The notes under the pieces: model-generated
The model's input: the letters and a program-made list of their open reading frames with translations, nothing else
What the model was told of the DNA's origin: nothing
Database searches by the model: none
Shown here: piece after piece, positions 5,784 through 43,249 of the stretch
Position numbering within the stretch: position 1 is the stretch's first letter
How the letters are laid out: every line of letters begins with the position of its first letter
Source: a virus
DNA: 43,249 bases
IMG/VR virus record: IMGVR_UViG_3300042939_000283
Span: 1 to 43,249 of that record
Strand: one strand, 5' to 3'
Made by a program: the position numbers and the translations under genes

Positions 5784-6659
5784 CTATGAGCGGGCCAAAC
5801 GCTCCGTCGTATCGACGATAAGGCCCTGTGCGCTAGGGTCCAAACGCTTAAAGCTTTCAATGAGACGTGCCGTTGAATCTGTTGACGCCTCAAAACACGA
5901 CGGTAGTTTTACTGATGGCCCGACACGCTGCAGTAGCGTCGCTGTGGCTACATAATGCGACATGACCTTTAAGCCACATCCATGCAGCACTGCTCCGGCG
6001 GACGCGTTGGCGATAGTCCATTGAGTGATGCCTTCCTGACGAAAATACTTTGGAAGCACCACAGTCACTGCCGCGTTTTCACACGCATCAGCGATTTCCT
6101 TTCTGATCGCTCGTTTCGCAAAATCTGAAACTGCTCTAAACCGATACGGCCCACGATGCACTATCCTTCGAAGCCATTTTGGCAACGGAATCACGTGCTG
6201 CTTCCCAGTCTTTGAGGCTATCACTGCGAGTGTTTCCGGCCATTCAGTCAGCCGATATCTAAGCAACACCCTCATTGCATCGGACAATCTGAGACCGGTC
6301 CACATCGTCAACGCAATCCATGATTGCAGCCATTCCTGACAATGTGGCCATATCGCGTCAACGATGTCGTGATTCACTCCGACTGGCATAACCTGCCTTT
6401 GTGCAAGCCTTTTCCCAGCACTGATTGAGCTTCCTACGAAATGTCTATGCAGCGTGAGTATGTCGGCAATCGTCGATTCGATTGTGCGCGGCGATAACGC
6501 TCGCCTCAGCAGCTCTGTCCGAATTTGATTTAGGTGTTCCGGGCTCACGTCACCGATTTGAATGTCACCTATTACCGATGCGGCACGGGTGGCAGAATAT
6601 AACGGTTCTCGACGTCGGATGGATTTTGCAGCCAAATACGCTGCGGCTTCGTTAATCAT
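5784..6659 (-). CDS. int: Tyrosine recombinase (phage integrase)
   Basis: A 291-residue integrase. I chose ATG 6659 because AGGAG lies eight bases upstream; an ATG at 6680 is in frame. The C-terminal catalytic domain shows Arg124 in MWTGLRLSDA, a Lys in IASKTGKQHVIPLP (150 or 153), Arg207 in LPKYFRQEG, and the nucleophile Tyr236 in KVMSHYVATA. The His of the HxxR box appears to be Lys204, and the third-box His/Trp appears to be Cys228 (LHGCG). Family knowledge: such enzymes recombine phage attP with a bacterial attB. The adjacent attP carries a tRNA-Val 3' half, which names the likely target. It is not an integron integrase: I see no IntI-specific insertion between the catalytic boxes. Confidence 0.87.
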   Translation of the reverse strand: MINEAAAYLAAKSIRRREPLYSATRAASVIGDIQIGDVSPEHLNQIRTELLRRALSPRTIESTIADILTLHRHFVGSSISAGKRLAQRQVMPVGVNHDIVDAIWPHCQEWLQSWIALTMWTGLRLSDAMRVLLRYRLTEWPETLAVIASKTGKQHVIPLPKWLRRIVHRGPYRFRAVSDFAKRAIRKEIADACENAAVTVVLPKYFRQEGITQWTIANASAGAVLHGCGLKVMSHYVATATLLQRVGPSVKLPSCFEASTDSTARLIESFKRLDPSAQGLIVDTTERLARS

Positions 6660-6754
6660 TGTGGTTGCTCCTGGTGTCATCCGTGCAACCTTATGTCATT
6701 CCGTGAGTCCGGCTGTTTCTTTCTATAAACGGTAGGGTTTTCGATACTAAGGCG

Positions 6755-10605: not shown

Positions 10606-10817
10606 TTCTGGAGTGCCGCTACAAGGACGCTGCGGGCGATTGGCTGACTGTCCAGCTGCACAGCGATGTTGTTCCGAATTCTCGTGCAACGGTGTTTGTA
10701 CAGGAGTCCGGGAAGCCGCTGATTGTGCTACGGGTTATTCGCCAAGTGTTTGAGTCAGGACGGCCAGTGCCGTGGATTCGGTGCTGCAAGATTAACGATG
10801 AGGACGGGGACGAATGA
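10602..10817 (+). CDS. Unknown protein, 71 aa
   Basis: Its ATG overlaps the previous stop, and its own TGA overlaps the next ATG, so it is coupled on both sides. It is a small beta-rich protein (MILECRYKDAAGDWLTVQ, then SRATVFVQESGKPLIVLRV) with an acidic tail (NDEDGDE). No family recognised. Confidence 0.65.
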   Translation: MILECRYKDAAGDWLTVQLHSDVVPNSRATVFVQESGKPLIVLRVIRQVFESGRPVPWIRCCKINDEDGDE

Positions 10818-11971
10818 GTATAGAAACATGCACATGCAGCATTTCTGACACGGTAAACATGCTGCTTAATGAAATAGAGATGATGGACATGCCTCAGAAG
10901 GTGGCGGCAATCAATAACGTGAAACGCAAACTGCACGCGATATCGCCGTTTGCAAATGAGCCAGTTGATTGTGTTGTGTGGATTCCAGCCGAGAACGTAA
11001 CTGCAAACGAATACAACCCTAATAAGGTTGCACCGCCGGAAATGGAATTGCTGGAAGTATCTATCGTAAATGACGGTTACACACAACCAATCGTCACGTG
11101 GGCCAAAGACGACGCGCACGAAGTAGTTGACGGATTTCACAGGTCGCGAGTTGGTAAGGAATCACACCTCGTCGCTCAGCGTATTCAAGGCTATTTGCCA
11201 GTCGTAGAAATTCGCAAAGAACAGCAGGGCAAGAATGATCGCATTGCGTCAACGATTCGCCACAACAGGGCACGAGGAAAGCATCAGGTAGACGCTATGT
11301 CAGAAATTGTGCTCGAACTAAAGAATCGCAATTGGACAAACAAGCGGATCGCCAAAGAACTCGGAATGGATGAGGATGAAATTTTGCGTCTCTGTCAAAT
11401 CACAGGACTGGAACACTTGTTTACAGACCATGATTTTTCGCGAGCGTGGGAAGCGTCTGACAGTTCTCCAACGGATGATTTCACCGAATTGACAGATGAC
11501 ATCACTGATGAAATGCGAGCAGCCGTCAGAACAGCCAATACCTCTGACCCCAACAGGGTGTTTCACACACACGATAAATGGGAGTGCGTCAAAGCTGGTT
11601 TTTATTCCTCGACGGTTGATGGGAAGACTAAGGAACAGTGCCAGCATGAATATGCGGCTTTCCTGTCGGACACCCGGCAATTTTCCGACGCACTGGTAAA
11701 GGTCTTTGAGCAATGGCCGCACTCCTGCGAACACTATCTCACAAACGTAGCCATGAACCGGATTGCATGGCTGGGTCAGGCTGCGATGTGCGTTGCTCGT
11801 GGCATTCCCAGTCAGTTTTGCTCTGGTTTTAACTTGCTCACGATCGAACAGCAGGAAGCTGCAAATCAGACTGCGTTAGAAGCGTTAAACAGTTGGCTGC
11901 AAGCTCGAGGAATGGAAACGCTCGACATGCACTCTGCCCTATCCTATGGCAGACAGGTGGAGATTTACTGA
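10814..11971 (+). CDS. ParB/Srx-fold protein, IbrB-like
   Basis: A 385-residue protein with a ParB-like nucleotide/DNA-binding domain at about residues 50-140: VVWIPAENVTANEYNPNKV, EVSIVNDGYTQPIVTW, then VVDGFHRSRVG, which corresponds to the ParB GERR-type box. A predicted HTH follows (WTNKRIAKELGMDEDEILRL). The C-terminal half is unassigned. The adjacent gene is a PAPS-reductase-family protein; the ordered ParB-like/PAPS-reductase-like pair is that of IbrB-IbrA, known in Escherichia as co-regulators of eib genes. Biochemical activity of this pair is not settled. The TGA overlaps the next ATG by one base. Confidence 0.8.
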   Translation: MSIETCTCSISDTVNMLLNEIEMMDMPQKVAAINNVKRKLHAISPFANEPVDCVVWIPAENVTANEYNPNKVAPPEMELLEVSIVNDGYTQPIVTWAKDDAHEVVDGFHRSRVGKESHLVAQRIQGYLPVVEIRKEQQGKNDRIASTIRHNRARGKHQVDAMSEIVLELKNRNWTNKRIAKELGMDEDEILRLCQITGLEHLFTDHDFSRAWEASDSSPTDDFTELTDDITDEMRAAVRTANTSDPNRVFHTHDKWECVKAGFYSSTVDGKTKEQCQHEYAAFLSDTRQFSDALVKVFEQWPHSCEHYLTNVAMNRIAWLGQAAMCVARGIPSQFCSGFNLLTIEQQEAANQTALEALNSWLQARGMETLDMHSALSYGRQVEIY

Positions 11972-13188
11972 TGACAAAAAAGGTGCAACTACTGACCTCC
12001 GTGTTAGACGAAGCTCGCGAGCGAATCGCGAAGTCCTTTGACATGTTCGAACGGCTGTACATTTCCTTTTCCGGTGGTAAGGACAGTTCTGTTATGTTTC
12101 ATCTAGTAATGGATGAAGCAAAACTACGGAATCGCAAGGTCGGCGTTTTGGTAATAGACCTCGAAGCTCAGTATTCCGATACGATCAAACATATCGAGGA
12201 AATGGTAACCCAGTACGCAGAACACATTGAACTTCACTGGGTGTGCGCTGAAATGTTGCTGAGGAACGCCGTTTCAAACTACCAGCCACGATGGATTTGC
12301 TGGGATGAAGACAAGAAGGATATCTGGGTTCGTGAAAAACCTGCACTGGCTGCAGATCTGAGCCAGTACGATTTCTATGTTCCAAAGATGGAATTCGAAG
12401 AATTCATGGTCATTTTTGGTGAGTGGTACGCACAAGGAAGAAAAACTGGTGCATTCATCGGAATTAGGTCTGACGAGTCATTGCATCGATACCGCGCGAT
12501 CGTTTCACGGAAAGATGGGTTGATGGCCAATGGCCACAAGTGGACAACAAAAGTTGCTCGCTGCCTGTACAACATCTACCCGATATACGACTGGCGTGTT
12601 GAAGATATTTGGGTGTACCACGGAAAGAACCCAGACAAACATCACAATCGTATTTACGACCAAATGACAAAGGCTGGCGTACCTCTCAGCCAGCAACGGT
12701 TGTGTCAGCCATATGGCGATGATCAGCGTAAAGGGTTGTGGCTTTATCACATTCTTGAGCCTCAGACATGGTACAAACTTGTCGTCCGCGTGAACGGTGT
12801 TAATAGCGGAGCGTTGTACATTCAAGAGACCGGAAACATGACCGGGTACAACAAGATCTGCAAACCCGATGGGCACACATGGAAATCATTCTGCAATCTG
12901 CTTTTGCGGACCATGCCTGCAAAAACTCGCGCACATTACGTGGCTCGCTTTCAAAAGTTTATCGCTGGATGGCATCATCGAGGATACACGATTATTCCCG
13001 ATGAAGCCCCGCATGAGCTTGAGGTTAAATGCTGGGCACCATCATGGAGACGAATGTGCAAGGTTCTTTTGCGAAATGATTACTGGTGCAAGGGACTGGG
13101 ACAATCACAGCCATTGTCAGACGCATATCAGACATTTAAGGAATTGCGGGCCAAACGCAAACTAGAAAACCGTTTATCACATGACTGA
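11971..13188 (+). CDS. PAPS-reductase-family protein, IbrA-like (DUF3440 type)
   Basis: A 405-residue protein. The PP-loop is clear: YISFSGGKDSSVMFHLVMDE (SGGKDS at 34-39), the ATP-pyrophosphatase motif of PAPS reductases and related adenylyl-transferring enzymes. Further blocks include RSDESLHRYRAI, KVARCLYNIYPIYDWRVEDI and CKPDGHTWKSFC. IbrA-like proteins share this architecture and are always longer than true PAPS reductases. There is no sulfur-assimilation neighbour, so a metabolic role is unlikely. It is coupled to the ParB-like gene, with which it probably forms one functional unit. ATG 11971 has GGTGGAG upstream. Confidence 0.85.
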   Translation: MTKKVQLLTSVLDEARERIAKSFDMFERLYISFSGGKDSSVMFHLVMDEAKLRNRKVGVLVIDLEAQYSDTIKHIEEMVTQYAEHIELHWVCAEMLLRNAVSNYQPRWICWDEDKKDIWVREKPALAADLSQYDFYVPKMEFEEFMVIFGEWYAQGRKTGAFIGIRSDESLHRYRAIVSRKDGLMANGHKWTTKVARCLYNIYPIYDWRVEDIWVYHGKNPDKHHNRIYDQMTKAGVPLSQQRLCQPYGDDQRKGLWLYHILEPQTWYKLVVRVNGVNSGALYIQETGNMTGYNKICKPDGHTWKSFCNLLLRTMPAKTRAHYVARFQKFIAGWHHRGYTIIPDEAPHELEVKCWAPSWRRMCKVLLRNDYWCKGLGQSQPLSDAYQTFKELRAKRKLENRLSHD

Positions 13189-15435: not shown

Positions 15436-15496
15436 GGAACACACAAATGACAACACCAACCCCCGCCCAACAACTTCTCGGAAACGCTTTCCAATT

Positions 15497-15560
15497 ATTT
15501 TCGAAAATCTTTTCAATCTGTTTGATTAGCCGTTGACGATTCAGACGAAGTAAGTAATAC
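15497..15560 (+). promoter_or_regulatory. Promoter P1 with TTTTCGAAAA operator
   Basis: A 12-bp palindrome ATTTTCGAAAAT (15497-15508) lies upstream of a sigma70-type promoter: -35 TTGACG (15533-15538), 16-base spacer, -10 TAATAC (15555-15560). The same layout recurs at 19861-19923, which argues that both are functional and controlled alike. It drives the genes at 15607 and 15759. The 170-base gap between 15435 and 15607 contains only this element and a doubtful short ORF. Confidence 0.75.
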
Positions 15561-15606
15561 TTCCCTCAGTCGAACGCAACGCAAACAACCAGCAAGGAAA
15601 AGAACA

Positions 15607-15762
15607 ATGACGACGACCAACGAAGTGCGAAACATGATCAAGCCATGGCTGACCGGAAACGACGAAAAAGACGCGAAGATGCTCAAGAATATGTTTCGAG
15701 GTGTTGGAATGAGCATCAGCGAATGGCGACAGGTTGTCAAAGAAACGAAAGCGGCAGCATGA
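15607..15762 (+). CDS. Small protein, 51 aa, P1 module gene 1
   Basis: ATG 15607 follows AAGGAAA; the product begins MTTTNEVRNMIKPWL and ends VVKETKAAA. No family recognised. Its TGA overlaps the next ATG (ATGA), exactly as in the paralogous module at 19971-20165, although the two first genes do not resemble each other. Confidence 0.65.
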   Translation: MTTTNEVRNMIKPWLTGNDEKDAKMLKNMFRGVGMSISEWRQVVKETKAAA

Positions 15763-15956
15763 GAGGTGGAGCCCGGAAGGGGGCCGGGCGAAAGCCCGGC
15801 CTCGGAGAAACGAAGGTTGACAAGAATATCGCCCTGACGCCCACGCTGTGGGCTTTTCTTATGTCGGGCGGGAATTCGGCTGGCCATGAAATCGAAACTC
15901 GCCTGCGAAAGTCTGCGGCGTTTAAATCGTGGCTGAAGAATCAGGTTTCAGAGTAG
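15759..15956 (+). CDS. GARKGAGRK-motif protein, P1 module gene 2
   Basis: A 65-residue protein with an N-terminal basic Gly-rich motif (RGGARKGAGRKPG) followed by a short domain (NIALTPTLWAFLMSGG, ETRLRKSAAFKSWLK). The paralogue at 20162-20371 has the same motif and the same spacing. Such N-termini are common in small phage and plasmid DNA-binding proteins. Its stop is immediately followed by the R'' box of attC1. Confidence 0.7.
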   Translation: MRGGARKGAGRKPGLGETKVDKNIALTPTLWAFLMSGGNSAGHEIETRLRKSAAFKSWLKNQVSE

Positions 15957-16048
15957 GCAGAACGACGGCATTCACCGGGTGCCGCCGTGAACGATTTCCA
16001 TTTCTAAACCCGCGTTGTCAGCGGCTCCCGTGCAACGCTTTGTTATCT
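15957..16048 (+). repeat. attC: attC1 (family A)
   Basis: R'' GCAGAAC, R' GTTATCT. Left part ACGGCATTCACCGGG pairs with CCCGTGCAACGCT, leaving unpaired bases. Nearly identical to attC8. Its R'' has no matching cassette start upstream, so the first unit of the array has lost its left boundary. Confidence 0.88.
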
Positions 16049-16059
16049 GGAGTTCTGAC

Positions 16060-16296
16060 GTGAGTGATGTATACAAGGTCACGATTGAAATCATCAACGA
16101 TGATGGAAGTACAGCAAAATGCGAAGTGGCAGGAAACCGCAACGAACTTGACGGAACTTTCGTGTTGGGGTCACTGGTCGGTCAAGCCGTTAATGGTGTA
16201 TGGAATCAGGTTGAGTTTTGTGAGGGAGAGAATTTTGCAGAAGGGCTAAATGACTTCCTGCCTGAAGAGTTCAAGGTAGTAGTTCCTTCCAGATAA
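16060..16296 (+). CDS. Cassette A protein, 78 aa
   Basis: The GTG 16060 follows CTGGAG by seven bases. The product begins VSDVYKVTIEIINDDGSTAK and is acidic and beta-rich; no family recognised. The stop TAA lies inside the R'' box (AGATAAC) of attC2, which matches GTTATCT at the cassette's left end. Confidence 0.7.
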   Translation: MSDVYKVTIEIINDDGSTAKCEVAGNRNELDGTFVLGSLVGQAVNGVWNQVEFCEGENFAEGLNDFLPEEFKVVVPSR

Positions 16297-16379
16297 CGAC
16301 GGCATTCACCGGGTTGCGGCCGGTGACTCTATTCTTCAAGAACCGTGAACCGCAACTCCGGTGCAATGCTTTGTTATTT
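16291..16379 (+). repeat. attC: attC2 (family A)
   Basis: R'' AGATAAC, R' GTTATTT. GCATT-CACCGG-GTTGCGG pairs with CCGCAACTCCGGTGCAATGC, leaving an extra T and C unpaired on the right strand, the hallmark of attC extrahelical bases. Confidence 0.92.
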
Positions 16380-16393
16380 GGAGATTGCATCAG

Positions 16394-16597
16394 ATGGATG
16401 CGAAGACTGGGCCAAAAACGGTTGAGGAACTCTATCGGGAACATGTGGGAAGAGTCGTACGCGGTCAAAAAGAAGAGTGGTCCGCCTGGCAATTCGCAAA
16501 AGCGGTTGGCGTAATTCTTGATGGTCCACAGGGATGCATTCAGTCGTTTGATTGCAATGCAGGAGATCACTCAGACGCCTGCCCTTCTTCCAAATAA
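16394..16597 (+). CDS. Cassette B protein, 67 aa
   Basis: ATG 16394 (MDAKTGPKTVEELYREHVGR), with GGAG upstream; an ATG at 16361 lies inside attC2 and is less likely. A small, mostly helical protein (WSAWQFAKAVGVILDG). The TAA is in R'' of attC3 (AAATAAC), matching GTTATTT at the left. No family recognised. Confidence 0.62.
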   Translation: MDAKTGPKTVEELYREHVGRVVRGQKEEWSAWQFAKAVGVILDGPQGCIQSFDCNAGDHSDACPSSK

Positions 16598-16682
16598 CGA
16601 CCAAGATCACAGGGTGCGAAAGGAAGACTATGAGCACACACAACGGCGAGAATGAGCACTCCTGTGCATCGCCTTGTTCGCC
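16592..16682 (+). repeat. attC: attC3 (family B, with start codon in loop)
   Basis: R'' AAATAAC, R' GTTCGCC. The arm ending GATCACAGGGTGC pairs with GCACTCCTGTGCATC. The loop holds AAGGAAG and an ATG (16630) that opens the next cassette's gene. Confidence 0.85.
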
Positions 16683-16905
16683 TGCTGTTCCTGACGCTGT
16701 GGGTGAATGGGAGTTGACCCGACACGATGGTGAGGTCATAACCTTTGAGACATACGAATTACCAACAGGCCAACTGGTTGCGTGGTGCGAAGAGTGCGGG
16801 CTTTCCGGCGGAATAGATCATTCTTTATTCTGGGATGACGATGAATGGGTCGGTCATGTTCCGGTGTGCCTTATGTCTGACTGGGGCGATTTTCGACGAG
16901 TTTAA
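16630..16905 (+). CDS. Cassette C protein, 91 aa, start inside attC3
   Basis: ATG 16630 lies in the attC3 loop after AAGGAAG, and the frame runs through L' and R' (SCASPCSPAVP) into the cassette. The remainder (VGEWELTRHDGEVITFETYE, WCEECGLSGGIDHSLFWDDD) has a CxxC pair and many acidic and aromatic residues. No family recognised. An internal GTG in AVGEWEL could be an alternative start. Confidence 0.65.
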   Translation: MSTHNGENEHSCASPCSPAVPDAVGEWELTRHDGEVITFETYELPTGQLVAWCEECGLSGGIDHSLFWDDDEWVGHVPVCLMSDWGDFRRV

Positions 16906-16912
16906 TGAGTCA

Positions 16913-17004
16913 GGCGAACGCCCGGCGATAACCGGGCCTGAGAGGTAAAACGATGAGTACAGAAAACGCAGAGCCGAAGGCTCCGGTTGATCGCCTTGTT
17001 ATCT
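16913..17004 (+). repeat. attC: attC4 (family B, with start codon in loop)
   Basis: R'' GGCGAAC (pairs with GTTCGCC at the left end of cassette C), R' GTTATCT. Arms CGCCCGGCGATAACCGGG and CTCCGGTTGATCGCC. The loop holds GAGAGG and ATG 16953. Confidence 0.92.
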
Positions 17005-17210
17005 GCAAAGAGTGTGATCTGCTGAATGGTCTGATGTTCGATCTGGAAAATCGTTGCTGTGATTTGCGGTGTCGGAACGTTCCGACTGGTGGTGATGATT
17101 ACGACGTCGAATGGTTCGTGGTTGAGCATTACATGCAGGAACCACGAGAGCGCGAAATCGGCAGTGGGCGAAATGTGATGATGGCTCTCATGGCTGCGTT
17201 TTGCAGATAA
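16953..17210 (+). CDS. Cassette D protein, 85 aa, start inside attC4
   Basis: ATG 16953 in the attC4 loop after GAGAGG. The first 16 residues (MSTENAEPKAPVDRLV) are encoded by the attC site, and almost the same string opens cassette K. The body is cysteine-rich (ICKECDLLNGLMF, CCDLRCRN), suggesting a zinc site. TAA in R'' AGATAAC of attC5. Confidence 0.68.
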   Translation: MSTENAEPKAPVDRLVICKECDLLNGLMFDLENRCCDLRCRNVPTGGDDYDVEWFVVEHYMQEPREREIGSGRNVMMALMAAFCR

Positions 17211-17294
17211 CGACAGCATTCACCGGGTTGCGGCCGGTGACTTTCTTTCTTCGAACACCGTGAACCGCAACTCCGGTGGAATGCTTTGTTATGC
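17205..17294 (+). repeat. attC: attC5 (family A)
   Basis: R'' AGATAAC (GCAGATAAC pairs with GTTATCTGC at the left of cassette D), R' GTTATGC. Arms as in attC2. Confidence 0.92.
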
Positions 17295-17311
17295 TGTTTT
17301 AAGGAGTGTCA

Positions 17312-17539
17312 ATGTCAAGGGTGCAGTACAAATACTGGATGGTTCATTCGCGTGAGGGTGGACCGGCTGCAAAAACGTACGACGACTTCGGCACCGCGTT
17401 ACAGGAGGCTCAACGTCTTGCGTCACAGCAACCGGGCAGGCGATTCGGCGTCATGGAACTTGTCGAATGCTGGGTAGTAGAGCAGCCAGAACCTCATTCA
17501 GTGCGAGTTGAGCACGCACCTCAAGCACAATCAGCATAA
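17312..17539 (+). CDS. Cassette E protein, 75 aa
   Basis: ATG 17312 with AAGGAG just upstream (GTG 17306 is in frame). The product begins MSRVQYKYWMVHSREGGPAA and contains a helix (YDDFGTALQEAQRLASQQ). No family recognised. The TAA is within R'' GCATAAC of attC6. Confidence 0.7.
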   Translation: MSRVQYKYWMVHSREGGPAAKTYDDFGTALQEAQRLASQQPGRRFGVMELVECWVVEQPEPHSVRVEHAPQAQSA

Positions 17540-17624
17540 CGACGGCATTCACCGGGTTGCGGCCGGTGGACTTCATTTTTTTAAAAACCGTGAACCGCAA
17601 CTCCGGTGGAATGCTTTGTTGTGC
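17534..17624 (+). repeat. attC: attC6 (family A)
   Basis: R'' GCATAAC (CAGCATAAC pairs with GTTATGCTG), R' GTTGTGC. Arms as in attC2. Confidence 0.92.
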
Positions 17625-17633
17625 TGCTTTGTA

Positions 17634-17661
17634 TTGACACAGAAGAGCAGCGGTGTGATAC
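17634..17661 (+). promoter_or_regulatory. Cassette-borne sigma70-type promoter
   Basis: TTGACA (17634-17639), a 16-base spacer, TGATAC (17656-17661); TG at 17654-17655 also gives an extended -10. It lies at the left end of cassette F, immediately after attC6, so this cassette brings its own promoter. Confidence 0.75.
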
Positions 17662-17668
17662 TCGTGGA

Positions 17669-17766
17669 ATAAGTCATCTGGCTAGAGATGATTTCAAGTT
17701 GTTCAAGGGCCGCAAGGCCTGAGAAGGAACCCTCCACAGGTCTAGCCGCTTGTGTGAGGGTTTTTT
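17669..17766 (+). ncRNA. Candidate structured small RNA / leader in cassette F
   Basis: Between the promoter and the coding gene lie three hairpins: TCATCT/AGATGA (17674-17691), GGCC-GCAA-GGCC with a GNRA tetraloop (17708-17719), and a terminator stem ACCCTC/GAGGGT with CACA/TGTG, followed by six T (17729-17766). A transcript of about 100 bases ending at the terminator is expected. It could be a free small RNA, or a leader that attenuates the gene at 17782. Not matched to a known RNA family from memory. Confidence 0.6.
17729..17766 (+). terminator. Intrinsic terminator/attenuator upstream of the DGQHR gene
   Basis: ACCCTCCACA (17729-17738) pairs with TGTGTGAGGGT (17751-17761; one bulged T), followed by a T tract. 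It lies between the cassette F promoter and its gene. Confidence 0.8.
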
Positions 17767-17781
17767 CGTAGGAACTTTCTC

Positions 17782-18582
17782 ATGTTAAAGACTATAGCGT
17801 TTTCGGAATTGAATTTAAAAAAGCGGCAGATTGTGAACGTAAATCTGAAGCCTGCTGAAGCCGCAGCATTACTGCAGCACAATACGGACAACCGTCGAAT
17901 CCGCCGCTCACTGGTGAAGTATTTGATTACTCAAATTTCCCAACAGGAATGGCGAGACGACCACCCACAGCCAATCGTGTTTTCGGATTCCCGTTTGATC
18001 GATGGCCAGCACAGATTGACAGCAATTTCTCAATCCGGCTGGGAGGATGGTTGCGTTGTGCGAATCGAAACTATGGCGAGCGACAAAGTGAGAGAATATC
18101 TCGATACTGGCGCTCCGCGTTCGCTGGCAGACCGCGTTTCTGTTGTCGAAAACCGGTCATATAATGAATGGATTATGAGGATCGTAAACGCCGCCACTGA
18201 TGTGAAGTCTGGTGGCGGATCGACAGCAAAGCGACCTACCCCTGAAGATGCACGCGAATACTACGACGTTCACAAAACGGAAATGGATGCCGTGTACAGA
18301 TCGTGGAAGAAAATTCCAGGACTCGGTATTTTTTCTGTCGCCCTTGCCGCAGTGGAATACGCAGCACTGGACACCGAAAAGGCTATCGCATTCTATGACG
18401 ATTTTTTCACGCCTGCGGGGCACATAAATCAAGCGCAGATTTTAAGAGACGCACTGCTGCGCAATGCCGATGGCCATCGCACCGGACGTAAACGCAAAGA
18501 ACTGTATGAGAAATCGGTTTCGTGCATGAAGGCTCACATGGAAGATCGCGAGATTAAGCGAGCTGTGTGTGGCACGTGGTAA
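17782..18582 (+). CDS. Cassette F protein: DGQHR-type ParB-like protein, 266 aa
   Basis: ATG 17782 with AGGA eight bases upstream. The key block is VFSDSRLIDGQHRLTAI, the DGQHR motif shared by ParB-like and DndB-like proteins, after an N-terminal region (NVNLKPAEAAALLQHNTDNR) and before VREYLDTGAPRSLADRVSVV. The C-terminal half is helical. Relatives occur in phages, and DGQHR proteins often act in DNA-modification control. It is the largest cassette protein and the only one with a strongly recognisable domain. Expression probably depends on readthrough of the preceding terminator. Confidence 0.8.
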   Translation: MLKTIAFSELNLKKRQIVNVNLKPAEAAALLQHNTDNRRIRRSLVKYLITQISQQEWRDDHPQPIVFSDSRLIDGQHRLTAISQSGWEDGCVVRIETMASDKVREYLDTGAPRSLADRVSVVENRSYNEWIMRIVNAATDVKSGGGSTAKRPTPEDAREYYDVHKTEMDAVYRSWKKIPGLGIFSVALAAVEYAALDTEKAIAFYDDFFTPAGHINQAQILRDALLRNADGHRTGRKRKELYEKSVSCMKAHMEDREIKRAVCGTW

Positions 18583-18589
18583 GGGTGGC

Positions 18590-18651
18590 GAATGGCTGGC
18601 AGGACGCCAGCCACGTTCGGAGCAGACAGGCAGGCAGGATGCCTTGTTCTG
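18590..18651 (+). repeat. Hairpins after the DGQHR gene
   Basis: TGGCTGGC-AGGAC-GCCAGCCA is a perfect 8-bp stem, followed by a second imperfect stem (GACAGGCAGG with CCTTGTTCTGTC). There is no T-tract. They may stabilise the transcript end. The GCCTTGTTCTG part recalls an attC right arm, but no matching R'' is present. Confidence 0.45.
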
Positions 18652-18654
18652 TCA

Positions 18655-18744
18655 GCACAACGACGGCATTCACCGGGTGCCGCAGCCCGGTGTGGATTTT
18701 TGAAAACGGATGGTGCGGCACTCCGGTGCAATGCTTAGTTATGC
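18655..18744 (+). repeat. attC: attC7 (family A)
   Basis: R'' GCACAAC (CAGCACAAC pairs with GTTGTGCTG at the left of cassette F), R' GTTATGC. Arms GGCATTCACCGGGTGCCGCA and TGCGGCACTCCGGTGCAATG. Confidence 0.92.
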
Positions 18745-18763
18745 CGTTTTTTTTGGAGTGGTG

Positions 18764-19000
18764 ATGAAGATTCAACTAGAGTTTAGCGGAACCAGTAGTA
18801 ATGCGATGGAATGCGTTGAGGAACTGCGATTGGCAGTGAAGGCCACAGGATGGCAACCATCGTGGATAATGCTTGCGATGATTTTGCGTGAACTTGAAGT
18901 GCTTGACGATGAGGACTGGCCGTCGGATGTTGCTGACGAACTACTGGCAATGATTATTGAAAAATTCGCAGATATGGAACGCAACAGTTTGTCCGCATAA
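18764..19000 (+). CDS. Cassette G protein, 78 aa
   Basis: ATG 18764 with GGAG upstream. The product begins MKIQLEFSGTSSNAMECVEE and ends with an acidic helical part (DDEDWPSDVADELLAMIIEK). No family recognised. TAA in R'' GCATAAC of attC8. Confidence 0.7.
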   Translation: MKIQLEFSGTSSNAMECVEELRLAVKATGWQPSWIMLAMILRELEVLDDEDWPSDVADELLAMIIEKFADMERNSLSA

Positions 19001-19084
19001 CGACGGCGTTCACGTGGCCGCCGTGAACGATTTCAATTTCTAAACCCGCGTTGTCGGCGGCTCCCGTGCAACGCTTTGTTAGCA
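18995..19084 (+). repeat. attC: attC8 (family A)
   Basis: R'' GCATAAC (pairs with GTTATGC), R' GTTAGCA. The central part is almost the same as in attC1. Confidence 0.9.
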
Positions 19085-19093
19085 GGTGTTTTT

Positions 19094-19378
19094 ATGTTGC
19101 TGAGACGCGCGATTGATGTGGTAGAGTTTTCAGAGGAACAGGTCGGGACCGCGATTGCAAGGGCCAGCGATGAACAGCAACGATACGTTCTAATCGCAAT
19201 GGCGAACGCTGTCGACCGAATGTCGATTGAGGGTGGGTCGTGGCCGTTTCAGTGCCGGGCTATTGTTGATGGTTCCTGTGGTCCGGGAAGCGGGCTGTCA
19301 GCGAATGACCGTAGCCGTATCGCGTCAATGCTGGATTGTTTACTGGATCATCTGCGGGAACCTGTGTCATCCTGCTAA
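19094..19378 (+). CDS. Cassette H protein, 94 aa
   Basis: ATG 19094 after GCAGGTG; a TTG inside attC8 is a weaker alternative. The product begins MLLRRAIDVVEFSEEQVGTA; helical, with a Gly/Ser/Cys loop (VDGSCGPGSG). No family recognised. TAA in R'' TGCTAAC of attC9. Confidence 0.68.
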   Translation: MLLRRAIDVVEFSEEQVGTAIARASDEQQRYVLIAMANAVDRMSIEGGSWPFQCRAIVDGSCGPGSGLSANDRSRIASMLDCLLDHLREPVSSC

Positions 19379-19508
19379 CGCCCGGCGATAACCGGGCTGA
19401 TTGAATTGAAAGGTGAGCAATGCAACGAGACCACAAAGGACAACCGATGACATACTGGGGTGGAAACCCGGACGGTCAATCAGCTCCGTGTTCATCGCCT
19501 TGTTCACC
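19373..19508 (+). repeat. attC: attC9 (family B, long, with start codon in loop)
   Basis: R'' TGCTAAC (CCTGCTAAC pairs with GTTAGCAGG), R' GTTCACC. The stem is longer than in the others: GCTGATTGA pairs with TCAATCAGC. The loop holds GAAAGGTGAGC and ATG 19420. Confidence 0.9.
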
Positions 19509-19752
19509 GCCGCTTTTCGTCACGCTGGAAGACGTCATACAATCACGGCTGCAATGGCTGAAAGAGTATCAGGGGCCAGTGGTTGCATGGGTGCCAGTTG
19601 GCGATTACCTGTCCGTTTTTTGGGAGGACGCGGCGTATCACGCTGTGCCCGTGAGTAATGATCTGACGTTGTATATGGCTATCGATGACAATCGCGTTGT
19701 TGGATGCAAGGTTCATTGCCTGACGCAGGTGATGTGTAAGTCAGCGCGGTGA
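19420..19752 (+). CDS. Cassette I protein, 110 aa, start inside attC9
   Basis: ATG 19420 in the attC9 loop; the frame runs through the right arm (SAPCSSPCSPP), as in cassette C. The body (TLEDVIQSRLQWLKEYQGPV, VAWVPVGDYLSVFWEDAAY) is a mixed alpha/beta domain with no recognised family. TGA in R'' GGTGAAC of attC10. Confidence 0.66.
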   Translation: MQRDHKGQPMTYWGGNPDGQSAPCSSPCSPPLFVTLEDVIQSRLQWLKEYQGPVVAWVPVGDYLSVFWEDAAYHAVPVSNDLTLYMAIDDNRVVGCKVHCLTQVMCKSAR

Positions 19753-19837
19753 ACGACGGCGTTAACCGGACCGCGAGCGGTTGACGCTGATTCTGAAAAC
19801 GCCTGATTCGCGGTTCCGGTTCAACGCTTTGTTATCG
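19748..19837 (+). repeat. attC: attC10 (family A, divergent)
   Basis: R'' GGTGAAC (GCGGTGAAC pairs with GTTCACCGC), R' GTTATCG. Arms GGCGTTAACCGGACCGCG and CGCGGTTCCGGTTCAACG. Confidence 0.92.
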
Positions 19838-19860
19838 TGCGTTTGTTGGTCTCGGAAATA

Positions 19861-19923
19861 TTTTCGAAAACTTTTCCTGATTGCTTGATTGTGTATTGCA
19901 CATTCATCCGATGATGGTAATAT
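19861..19923 (+). promoter_or_regulatory. Promoter P2 with TTTTCGAAAA operator (paralogue of P1)
   Basis: Palindrome TTTTCGAAAA (19861-19870), -35 TTGCAC (19896-19901), a 16-base spacer starting ATTCA, -10 TAATAT (19918-19923). It matches P1 in order, spacing and in the CTCGGAAA sequence before the palindrome. It drives the three genes of cassette J. Confidence 0.75.
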
Positions 19924-19970
19924 TCCTTCATCAGACGTGCGACGCAAAACGACCAACAAGGAAACGAACA

Positions 19971-20165
19971 ATGACAGAAGTAGCAATGAAATCAGACATC
20001 GTTAAAGAAACCGAAAAAGCTATCTGCATCGACTACGCACGCGAACGACAGATTTGGTTGCCAAAGAGTTGTATTGAAATTGTGGACGGTATTGTGTGGG
20101 CTAAAAAGTGGATTGCAAAGCAAAACGGAATCGGATGCTTTAACCGAAGGACAGTAACAGTATGA
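19971..20165 (+). CDS. Cassette J gene 1, 64 aa
   Basis: ATG 19971 after AAGGAAACG, the same leader as at 15607. The product begins MTEVAMKSDIVKETEKAICI and contains ERQIWLPKSCIEIVDGIVWA, a beta-rich domain. No family recognised. ATGA overlap to the next gene. Confidence 0.68.
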   Translation: MTEVAMKSDIVKETEKAICIDYARERQIWLPKSCIEIVDGIVWAKKWIAKQNGIGCFNRRTVTV

Positions 20166-20371
20166 GTGGCGGACAACGTGAAGGGGCCGGGAGACCGGCC
20201 CCATTGGGGCGCAAGGAGACATGCACGGTTCGCCTGACTCCGGATGTTGTAGAGTTTTGCCGTCAGCATAAAAACGGGTTCCCAGTGCTGGAAGAAAAGC
20301 TACGCAAGTCAAAAGAGTTTCGGGAATGGTTGGCCGCACGCAGTCGCAGTAAGGAATCCGCATGCGAATAG
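20162..20371 (+). CDS. Cassette J gene 2, GQREGAGRP-motif protein
   Basis: A 69-residue protein with SGGQREGAGRPAPLG at the N-terminus, then KETCTVRLTPDVVEFCRQ and LRKSKEFREWLA. It is a paralogue of the P1-module protein at 15759-15956 (same motif, same following segment, same ATGA coupling). Probably a small DNA-binding protein; it may act on the shared TTTTCGAAAA sites, which is inference. Confidence 0.72.
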   Translation: MSGGQREGAGRPAPLGRKETCTVRLTPDVVEFCRQHKNGFPVLEEKLRKSKEFREWLAARSRSKESACE

Positions 20372-20622
20372 TTCAAGCAAACCTTTGTTTAAGGTTTCAC
20401 CCTCGATGCGGATGGACACGTGAGGCAGTCAGGCAGTTGCTGCGTGACGATAAGCGTCTAGAGCGGGTGATGCCGCGATATTTCGACGCGAGAGACAAAG
20501 CCGGACAGGGCAGCAACGAACTCGCAGACGGGTTGCCGCACGATGACTGCGATTACTTCGCAGTCTACGGAGCGTGCGAACCGTTTTCCGCTGCTGCGTT
20601 GGCAGAGCATGAGATTGTGTGA
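20362..20622 (+). CDS. Cassette J gene 3, 86 aa
   Basis: ATG 20362 overlaps the end of gene 2 by 10 bases. The product begins MRIVQANLCLRFHPRCGWTR and contains EAVRQLLRDDKRLERVMPRY, a helical charged region. No family recognised. The cassette's R'' (CGATAAC) follows 7 bases after the stop. Confidence 0.62.
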   Translation: MRIVQANLCLRFHPRCGWTREAVRQLLRDDKRLERVMPRYFDARDKAGQGSNELADGLPHDDCDYFAVYGACEPFSAAALAEHEIV

Positions 20623-20629
20623 TCCGTCA

Positions 20630-20718
20630 CGATAACGCCCGGCGATAACCGGGCGGGGAGTAAAACATGGAAAACCAAAATCAGGCTGATACCGCTCCGG
20701 TTGATCGCCTTGTTATGC
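20630..20718 (+). repeat. attC: attC11 (family B, with start codon in loop)
   Basis: R'' CGATAAC (CACGATAAC pairs with GTTATCGTG at the left of cassette J, 800 bases away), R' GTTATGC. The loop holds GGGGAG and ATG 20667. Confidence 0.93.
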
Positions 20719-21026
20719 CGTGGGATCGGGACGTAAACACACTGACGAAGTTTTGTGAACAGGCTGCTATCGTGCACCTTTTAGACACCGGAACTCACAC
20801 GGCTGCGACTCTAAAGCAGGCGCTGTGGTGGATTCAGTTTCTTGATCAGTTCAGGAAAACGGTTGAGAACGTGCATCAGGCTGTGTCGCAACTGTCACCA
20901 GAACAGCAAGATGTTATTACTGCTGCCTGCCGAAACACTGCGGGTATCTGTTTCTGTGGCAATCATGGATCCTCAGACAGTGGTGTCGATTTCGGTGATG
21001 GTGGTGAGTCAGTGTCATCGGCATAA
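20667..21026 (+). CDS. Cassette K protein, 119 aa, start inside attC11
   Basis: ATG 20667 in the attC11 loop with GGGGAG upstream. MENQNQADTAPVDRLV is encoded by the attC site and resembles the start of cassette D. The body is helical (QFLDQFRKTVENVHQAVSQL). No family recognised. TAA in R'' GCATAAC of attC12. Confidence 0.68.
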   Translation: MENQNQADTAPVDRLVMPWDRDVNTLTKFCEQAAIVHLLDTGTHTAATLKQALWWIQFLDQFRKTVENVHQAVSQLSPEQQDVITAACRNTAGICFCGNHGSSDSGVDFGDGGESVSSA

Positions 21027-21107
21027 CGACCGGCGATAACCGGGCGGACGGTTGATTTTCTACGCGATGACCGGCTGAAGCCGCTCCGGTTGATCGCCTT
21101 GTTATGC
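21021..21107 (+). repeat. attC: attC12 (family B)
   Basis: R'' GCATAAC (CGGCATAAC pairs with GTTATGCCG), R' GTTATGC. An ATG in its loop is followed by a stop after three codons, so it does not supply a useful start. Confidence 0.92.
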
Positions 21108-21127
21108 GGCTTTTGTAAGGGTGACAT

Positions 21128-42089: not shown

Positions 42090-43249
42090 AGCACCAGCCC
42101 CGCGAAAAGAGGATCACTTACACCACTGCCACCGCTTGCTGCAGTCCCGTGTACTGCTATTGAGACCAATCGCCCGGAAGTATTGGCTGAGTATCGCCAC
42201 GGAAAGCTATACACCTCATATCCTTCCGTAGCGTTTACCGTCGCGGCTTGCGCATAGGCGGCCACCGTGTTTCCTGAGTCTGAACTATTCCCAAGTGCCA
42301 CAGTCCATGCAATGGGACCGTTACTTAGCTCAGCCGGCTCAGCGACCGCACCCTGCCCCGAGAACATCGTGATAGCAATTGTGCCTGCAGTTTCAGTTGC
42401 GACTGTTGCTGGTGGAAAATACGGCATCGTCGAACTGACAGTCGTGTTTGCGTAAACAACTTCAGTCCATCCCGAGATTCTGTAAGCGATGCACGTGCTT
42501 GATTCGCTGATGGACGTCGTAACGGAAACTGTTGTTCCTTCGCTGCCTGATGCTGTTTTGGAGTACAGAATACTCTGGTCAGTCGCGGTGATCGTGCTGA
42601 CTGCGATTGACCAGCCCGATGGCGTCGTGATCGTTCCGGTCGTACCATCTTTGTTGAACCACAAAAGCAGTAAGTCCCCTGATGCGATCCCAGATGGTAG
42701 GTTCACGGTGTGCGTTGTTTGATTCGCTGAAAAGTATGTAACTGCCACACCTTCAATGACTGGTGCTCCGCTCAGTGTCGGCATTGCATCATACGTGATC
42801 TCCAGATAGGCAACGTCGACGTAGGCTTCACCGTCAATCGTCGCTCCGGAATAAGTCAACTCAAATGCTGGCGATGAACTGCTGAGCCCGCCATATTCGC
42901 CCGTCACAGTGCAAGAGGCCCAGCCCCATGCACCTGATGACGGCTTGCCCGTCAATGTTCCAGACCGCCAAACACCGTTCAGACGGATTCGGACCGCACT
43001 GATGTCACCGTCTGAGTTGCTGTCGAATTTGAGATACACCCAGAGCTTCGCACTGGTGATTAGCCCTGTTACTGTCGGTGACGCACACCCGTACTGCTGA
43101 GCACCAGACGAATCACCCGAGTAGTATGCGTAGTCACTCGTGCCGCCAGCTGTGGGCTGTGTCGTAGCGTCATCAATCAGCGTGAACGGGTTGCTTCCGC
43201 CCCAGCCGGAATTGAGTGTCGCGTTCGGACGTAGTGGTGAGGTCGTCGG
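42086..43249 (-). CDS. Putative tail fibre/adhesin, copy 2 (start just outside window)
   Basis: Open from the right edge (first codon present is CCG at 43249) to its stop at 42086, 387 residues. The product matches copy 1 (1-1026) nearly throughout; the GTG would be at the first base beyond the window. It ends SGVSDPLFAGLVL and overlaps the ATG of the next gene. A Met at 43039 (MYLKFDSNSDGD) is in frame but internal to the conserved region, so it is not the start. Confidence 0.65.
   Translation of the reverse strand, partial: PTTSPLRPNATLNSGWGGSNPFTLIDDATTQPTAGGTSDYAYYSGDSSGAQQYGCASPTVTGLITSAKLWVYLKFDSNSDGDISAVRIRLNGVWRSGTLTGKPSSGAWGWASCTVTGEYGGLSSSSPAFELTYSGATIDGEAYVDVAYLEITYDAMPTLSGAPVIEGVAVTYFSANQTTHTVNLPSGIASGDLLLLWFNKDGTTGTITTPSGWSIAVSTITATDQSILYSKTASGSEGTTVSVTTSISESSTCIAYRISGWTEVVYANTTVSSTMPYFPPATVATETAGTIAITMFSGQGAVAEPAELSNGPIAWTVALGNSSDSGNTVAAYAQAATVNATEGYEVYSFPWRYSANTSGRLVSIAVHGTAASGGSGVSDPLFAGLVL

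Follow-up and report, generated by a model that had tools for sequence, protein, structure and literature searches.

A structured leader RNA with covarying hairpin loops precedes unrelated accessory genes in uncultured phages, and one copy has likely been captured in an integron-type cassette

In one gene cassette of an uncultured phage, a promoter is followed by three RNA hairpins, the last of them an intrinsic terminator, and only then by the gene. A gene cut off from its own promoter by a terminator implies either that read-through is controlled or that the short RNA is itself useful. The DNA analyzed (the window) is an IMG/VR record of 43,249 bases, the whole of that virus record, and carries tailed-phage genes for a head protease/capsid fusion, portal, large terminase, and tape measure. 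The record has a 300-bp direct repeat (81% identity) close to its two termini (2-301 and 42228-42527). At 10814-13188, a gene for a ParB_N-domain protein adjoins a PAPS-reductase/DUF3440 gene, a pair that is IbrB/IbrA-like with weak DndC similarity.

Between about 15.95 and 21.1 kb (15950-21110), short genes stand in a row, separated by related attC-like repeats, and constitute a phage-borne array. The cassette of interest, cassette F (17619-18738, plus strand), measures 1120 bp from the G^TT of one flanking attC site to the G^TT of the other, as delimited by attC folds, repeats, and sequence. Both the upstream site (17534-17624, plus strand; R'' GCATAAC, R' GTTGTGC; folding z -5.3) and the site belonging to cassette F (18655-18744, plus strand; R'' GCACAAC, R' GTTATGC; folding z -4.1) fold on the bottom strand in an attC-like manner, with complementary R''/R' cores, an unpaired central spacer, and extrahelical bases, the features by which an attC-bounded integron gene cassette is recognized. 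No IntI integrase was recognized among the window ORFs scanned, which include one phage-type tyrosine recombinase (5784-6680). In having an attC array without a recognized integron integrase, the record resembles the CALINs of phages, which are attC/cassette clusters in phage genomes lacking such an integrase (PMC9892861); it differs in that the array resides in an unclassified IMG/VR phage and includes one cassette with a structured leader. Near-identical attC sequence occurs in eight other viral contigs (L002-L009), several of which have the same flanks around different cassettes. In addition, two cassette regions (15480-15610 and 19840-19970) have upstream stretches in common that contain palindromes (TCGGAAA/TTTTCGAAAA) and a site resembling a promoter (TTGACG-17-AATACT in the 15480-15610 stretch, which is 93% identical in L005), suggesting a common operator.

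All elements of cassette F lie on the plus strand. The sigma-70 promoter (17634-17662; 10/12 matches) consists of a -35 hexamer TTGACA (17634-17639), a spacer of 17 nt, and a -10 hexamer GATACT (17657-17662) with an upstream TG. A reading of the sequence alone (hereafter the sequence-only reading) had located this site correctly but set its spacing one base off, as TTGACA-16-TGATAC. Taken singly, the promoter does not rise above chance (5 found vs 4.8 expected in a 7 kb region), and therefore conservation had to decide. Downstream, SL1 (17673-17692) has 7 bp and the loop GGCTAG (17680-17685), SL2 (17707-17720) has 5 bp and a GCAA tetraloop (GGGCC-GCAA-GGCCT), and SL3, the intrinsic terminator (hairpin 17728-17762, loop CTAGCC at 17742-17747), is followed by a U-tract of six T that ends at 17766. 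This predicted RNA of about 95 nt folds with a z of -5.6 (0/200 shuffles). Its SL1 and terminator loops are exact complements of each other, a match that the sequence-only reading had missed. The two leader hairpins noted in that reading, including the GCAA stem, and its terminator are all found. Its folding ensemble is dominated by the three hairpins, and no competing, mutually exclusive antiterminator stem appears in that ensemble. A Shine-Dalgarno sequence AGGAA (17770-17774) stands immediately 3' of the U-tract. A comparable arrangement, with a cassette-borne promoter and a regulatory leader preceding the gene, is that of the cmlA integron cassette, whose leader peptide mediates translation attenuation by Shine-Dalgarno sequestration (PMC8876359); unlike cmlA, cassette F has an intrinsic terminator and a free Shine-Dalgarno sequence.

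Relatives of the leader were first sought with a gapped pattern based on the complementarity of the SL1 and terminator loops. This yielded L010/L011, a phage with different neighbors in which the RNA is flanked by a Clp-protease gene on one side and a capsid gene on the other. Its RNA aligns with that of cassette F over 102 nt without a gap, and its SL2 keeps the GCAA loop, while in four of the five base pairs both bases differ. A covariance model (R1) built from these two RNAs matched further viral contigs (E about 1e-5 to 1e-21), and a second pattern, comprising only the terminator stem and a CTNNCC loop with SL1 unconstrained, added more copies. The leader unit was thereby found in about 27 other uncultured-virus contigs, with 18 distinct sequences besides cassette F; the family alignment (A7) holds these 19. 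Four pattern matches (L012, L013, L145, and L240) were discarded as chance, being coding or generic terminator sequence without SL1. A further candidate from a PVC bacterium (L014) contains GGCTAGA..GGTCTAGCC but is not matched by the covariance model, and 288 genomes of its phylum, a set with no known positive, gave no matches.

Neither the plasmid nor the phage reference collections contained a significant nucleotide match to the leader RNA. In Rfam 15, the cassette F window had no match at the gathering score (the best was a miRNA-type chance match, E 0.86, far below that score), L147 had none at E<=1, and six member loci had none at the gathering score. Together, these results suggest that the leader is likely a previously undescribed RNA family, carried on single accessory (moron-type) phage genes and captured here in an integron-type cassette. 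The known repertoire thereby gains a structured, strongly covarying RNA family that Rfam 15 lacks and that is tied to many genes of unknown function in uncultured phages.

Base pairs were counted over the 19 distinct sequences, with the kissing helix treated as a pseudoknot. Pairing was retained in 98.8% of pair cells, and 23 of 31 pairs exhibited double changes. Because the copies are related, shuffle controls overstate significance somewhat and permutation counts are not exact probabilities; so read, the 108 double-change cells observed compare with 30.0±4.7 in shuffled alignments (0/500) and 4-16 with slid partners, and the 18 in the loop-loop helix alone with 6.1±2.6. SL1 is paired in 100% of cells, with double changes in six of its seven pairs, and SL2 covaries in 5/5 pairs. 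Conservation of the hairpins in relatives, on which the sequence-only reading had staked its proposal, is thus borne out with covariation in 19 copies.

The two 6-nt loops follow the forms GGNNAG (SL1) and CTN'N'CC (terminator) and occur in five pairs: GGCTAG/CTAGCC, GGTCAG/CTGACC, GGTTAG/CTAACC, GGCGAG/CTCGCC, and GGCAAG/CTTGCC. They are perfectly complementary in 18 of the 19 distinct rows (0 of 100,000 permutations were as good), and this covarying complementarity of two hairpin loops is that of a kissing-loop RNA. As SL1 was unconstrained in the second-pattern searches, the loop matching in L138, L139, L146-L148, and L239 is not circular. On any tree, the five loop types would require at least four separate compensated changes. 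The exception, L140, combines GGCTAG with CTGACC, has a deleted SL1 arm, and has lost the promoter; its mismatch is possibly what would be expected of a decayed or recombinant copy, or it may represent a new hybrid. This mismatched, promoterless copy precedes a YdaS-like/sigma-70 region 4 protein (L140:4271-5122).

The loops bear on two alternative explanations. First, the element might be a plain constitutive terminator or insulator joined to a promoter, with loops that have no regulatory role. A strong terminator is indeed present in every copy; however, covarying loop complementarity would then serve no purpose, and a terminator in that place would do nothing but silence the gene it precedes; we regard this explanation as very improbable. 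Second, covarying interlocking loops are a hallmark of the phi29 pRNA, and the complementarity in 18/19 sequences would suit a multimerizing structural RNA of that kind, in which SL1 pairs with SL3 of the next molecule. Yet in every copy the element leads into a gene and has a terminator at its end, and its position in the genome varies (head module, accessory region, or cassette array), making a pRNA-like role exceedingly improbable.

The surroundings of the RNA are conserved on its 5' side. Of 20 copies, 18-19 keep the promoter at a fixed distance, its hexamers lying 16-17 nt apart and ending 4-8 nt before the RNA (individual shuffle p 0 to 0.1, and 0.37 for L229; L140 has none), and at this fixed distance the transcript should begin at or just 5' of SL1. 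A Shine-Dalgarno sequence and start codon follow shortly 3' of the U-tract in nearly every copy. The conserved order on one strand (promoter, structured leader, intrinsic terminator, Shine-Dalgarno sequence, and ORF) is the architecture of an attenuator. "A small RNA unit or an attenuator", as the sequence-only reading put it, is still the right pair of alternatives for a structured RNA that precedes a gene and is equipped with a promoter and a terminator of its own.

The genes on the 3' side belong to at least eight unrelated types, encoding DGQHR proteins (in the window and L212/L229/L241), ParB-like proteins (L007, L138), phrog_4652 proteins (L018, with close homologs in L115 and L146-L149, and L239 by its start sequence), an HNH endonuclease (L073/L022), DUF7352 (L008), a 63-aa cysteine-rich membrane-type protein (L137/L142), a sigma-70 region 4 protein (L140), and unknown products (L010, L095, L139). 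The phrog_4652 family is associated with three loop types. Since the downstream genes are unrelated, the leader, and not the gene, is the conserved unit; a constant promoter, RNA, and terminator before a variable gene look like a portable expression-control module. Cassette F would accordingly be a self-promoted, apparently regulated gene unit within a phage cassette array, and the leader RNA flags phage accessory genes that are worth study.

The gene in cassette F (ORF 17782-18582, plus strand, ATG at 17782) encodes a 266-aa DGQHR protein (P0001, phrog_5931) that contains LIDGQHRL, part of the conserved motif N..NR..W..LIDGQHRL..D..R. Its AlphaFold2 model is confident (pLDDT 91) and has weak fold matches in the PDB, the best to ParB N-domains (E 0.07) and to PadC (E 0.63), at TM values of about 0.2-0.4. 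Pfam gave no DndB or ParB match at E<=1, and only GmrSD_N at E 0.15, below cutoff. Hence, of the earlier description "ParB/DndB-like", DndB lacks Pfam support and ParB is reduced to a weak fold match. Nor is a specific pairing of the RNA with DGQHR genes supported: it precedes other gene types, and the closest DGQHR homologs, L158 (45%) and L159 (40%), are without it. The sequence-only reading had proposed a search for copies near other DGQHR genes, and a protein-alignment search that returned 80 DGQHR loci identified two in which the RNA lies directly upstream of a distant DGQHR gene; most have none. Phages and plasmids commonly carry relatives of P0001, most of which lack the leader RNA, and the homologs of the DGQHR and phrog_4652 proteins from reference phages and one plasmid lack it. 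The suggested likeness to type III toxin-antitoxin modules also fails: the leader has no tandem repeats of the antitoxin kind, the protein belongs to no toxin family and gave no hit in PADLOC, and the partner gene is not constant.

In the absence of a competing antiterminator, and with the SL1 loop-terminator loop contact as the sole conserved long-range contact, we take kissing to be the likeliest regulator. We therefore propose, with moderate confidence, that the leader is a cis-acting premature-termination leader (attenuator) in which termination is regulated by this contact. RNA polymerase would start at the cassette's own promoter, which would put SL1 essentially at the 5' end, and would produce SL1 and SL2 before reaching SL3, the hexanucleotide loop of which would kiss the SL1 loop. 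By default, transcription would stop at the U-tract to give the RNA of about 95 nt, and the gene would be expressed from read-through transcripts only; the termination decision would be set or gated by the kissing contact, whose conservation is the most specific of any feature. Both the termination and its modulation by kissing are what we infer from the conserved sequence. With the folding ensemble dominated by the three hairpins, the OFF state appears constitutive. The proposed attenuator would offer a compact model of communication between a 5' hairpin and a terminator hairpin by way of a kissing contact of six base pairs. The specificity of this contact evolves freely at two positions, such that two-base swaps on each side would give a direct test of mechanism and orthogonality.

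Loop-loop contacts also organize known riboswitches, and the leader could be read as a ligand-sensing one, with SL1/SL2 and the kissing contact as aptamer and the terminator as expression platform. However, outside the helices and paired loops almost nothing is invariant (the SL2 stem, the linkers, and even the SL2 loop vary), which leaves few invariant unpaired bases, and the downstream genes share no pathway. We consider a riboswitch improbable; given such diverse genes, the trigger of the attenuator would be a phage or host state rather than a metabolite.

The main rival to the cis attenuator is a dual sRNA/mRNA leader, in which the terminated RNA would accumulate and act in trans, its loops pairing with the leader of a second copy while that leader is being transcribed. 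It would serve as a loop-typed RNA for feedback or superinfection immunity, with the loop pair as specificity group. We hold this to be possible, if on the doubtful side. Consistent with it, the RNA is predicted to be stable and has its own promoter and terminator, exactly one leader copy was present in each of 25/25 viral records searched whole (most of these contigs being fragments), and of the five distinct loop pairs (predicted duplex energies -5.7 to -9.5 kcal/mol) most cross-pair poorly. On the other hand, the contact could equally be made in cis, at a far higher local concentration, two of the SL1 loops (GGTTAG and GGCGAG) do cross-pair with other loop types, and the downstream genes are accessory rather than for replication or immunity. 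A broader version, in which one phage's RNA of about 95 nt recognizes, through its loops, the nascent leader of any phage with a matching loop type and governs termination of that leader, seems unlikely. Were it true, phages that share a host would fall into compatibility groups set by their loop pairs, and the element would move from one accessory gene to another unrelated one, in the present case even into an integron-type cassette.

In control RNAs of the pT181/ColE1/IncI type, kissing hairpin loops decide expression or termination, and loop identity is specificity. In those plasmids the partner is a distinct antisense RNA transcribed from the other strand, whereas no such RNA is known for the cassette F family. 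The put RNA of HK022 likewise places hairpins at the extreme 5' end of a phage transcript and acts on termination, but it makes polymerase read through distant terminators; in cassette F the terminator is within the element and would pair with hairpin 1. As short phage-borne RNAs with predicted premature termination, the leaders resemble IsrK of the Gifsy-1 prophage and P4 CI/SeqA, which are ended by premature termination and in which RNA-RNA pairing controls expression; IsrK has an intrinsic terminator before genes that are reached by read-through (PMC4825925). These RNAs are also the precedent for action in trans (PMC4825925). Unlike them, the cassette F family carries both pairing partners within a single RNA, in the loops of SL1 and of the terminator itself, precedes many different genes, and has no Rfam match. 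We rate these literature systems as close relations rather than the same element, which appears to be a new RNA family working as a premature-termination-type leader. In one relative, a second terminator hairpin follows the DGQHR gene and is itself directly followed by a Shine-Dalgarno sequence and start codon (L212:3805-3860), and perhaps precedes a second attenuated gene.
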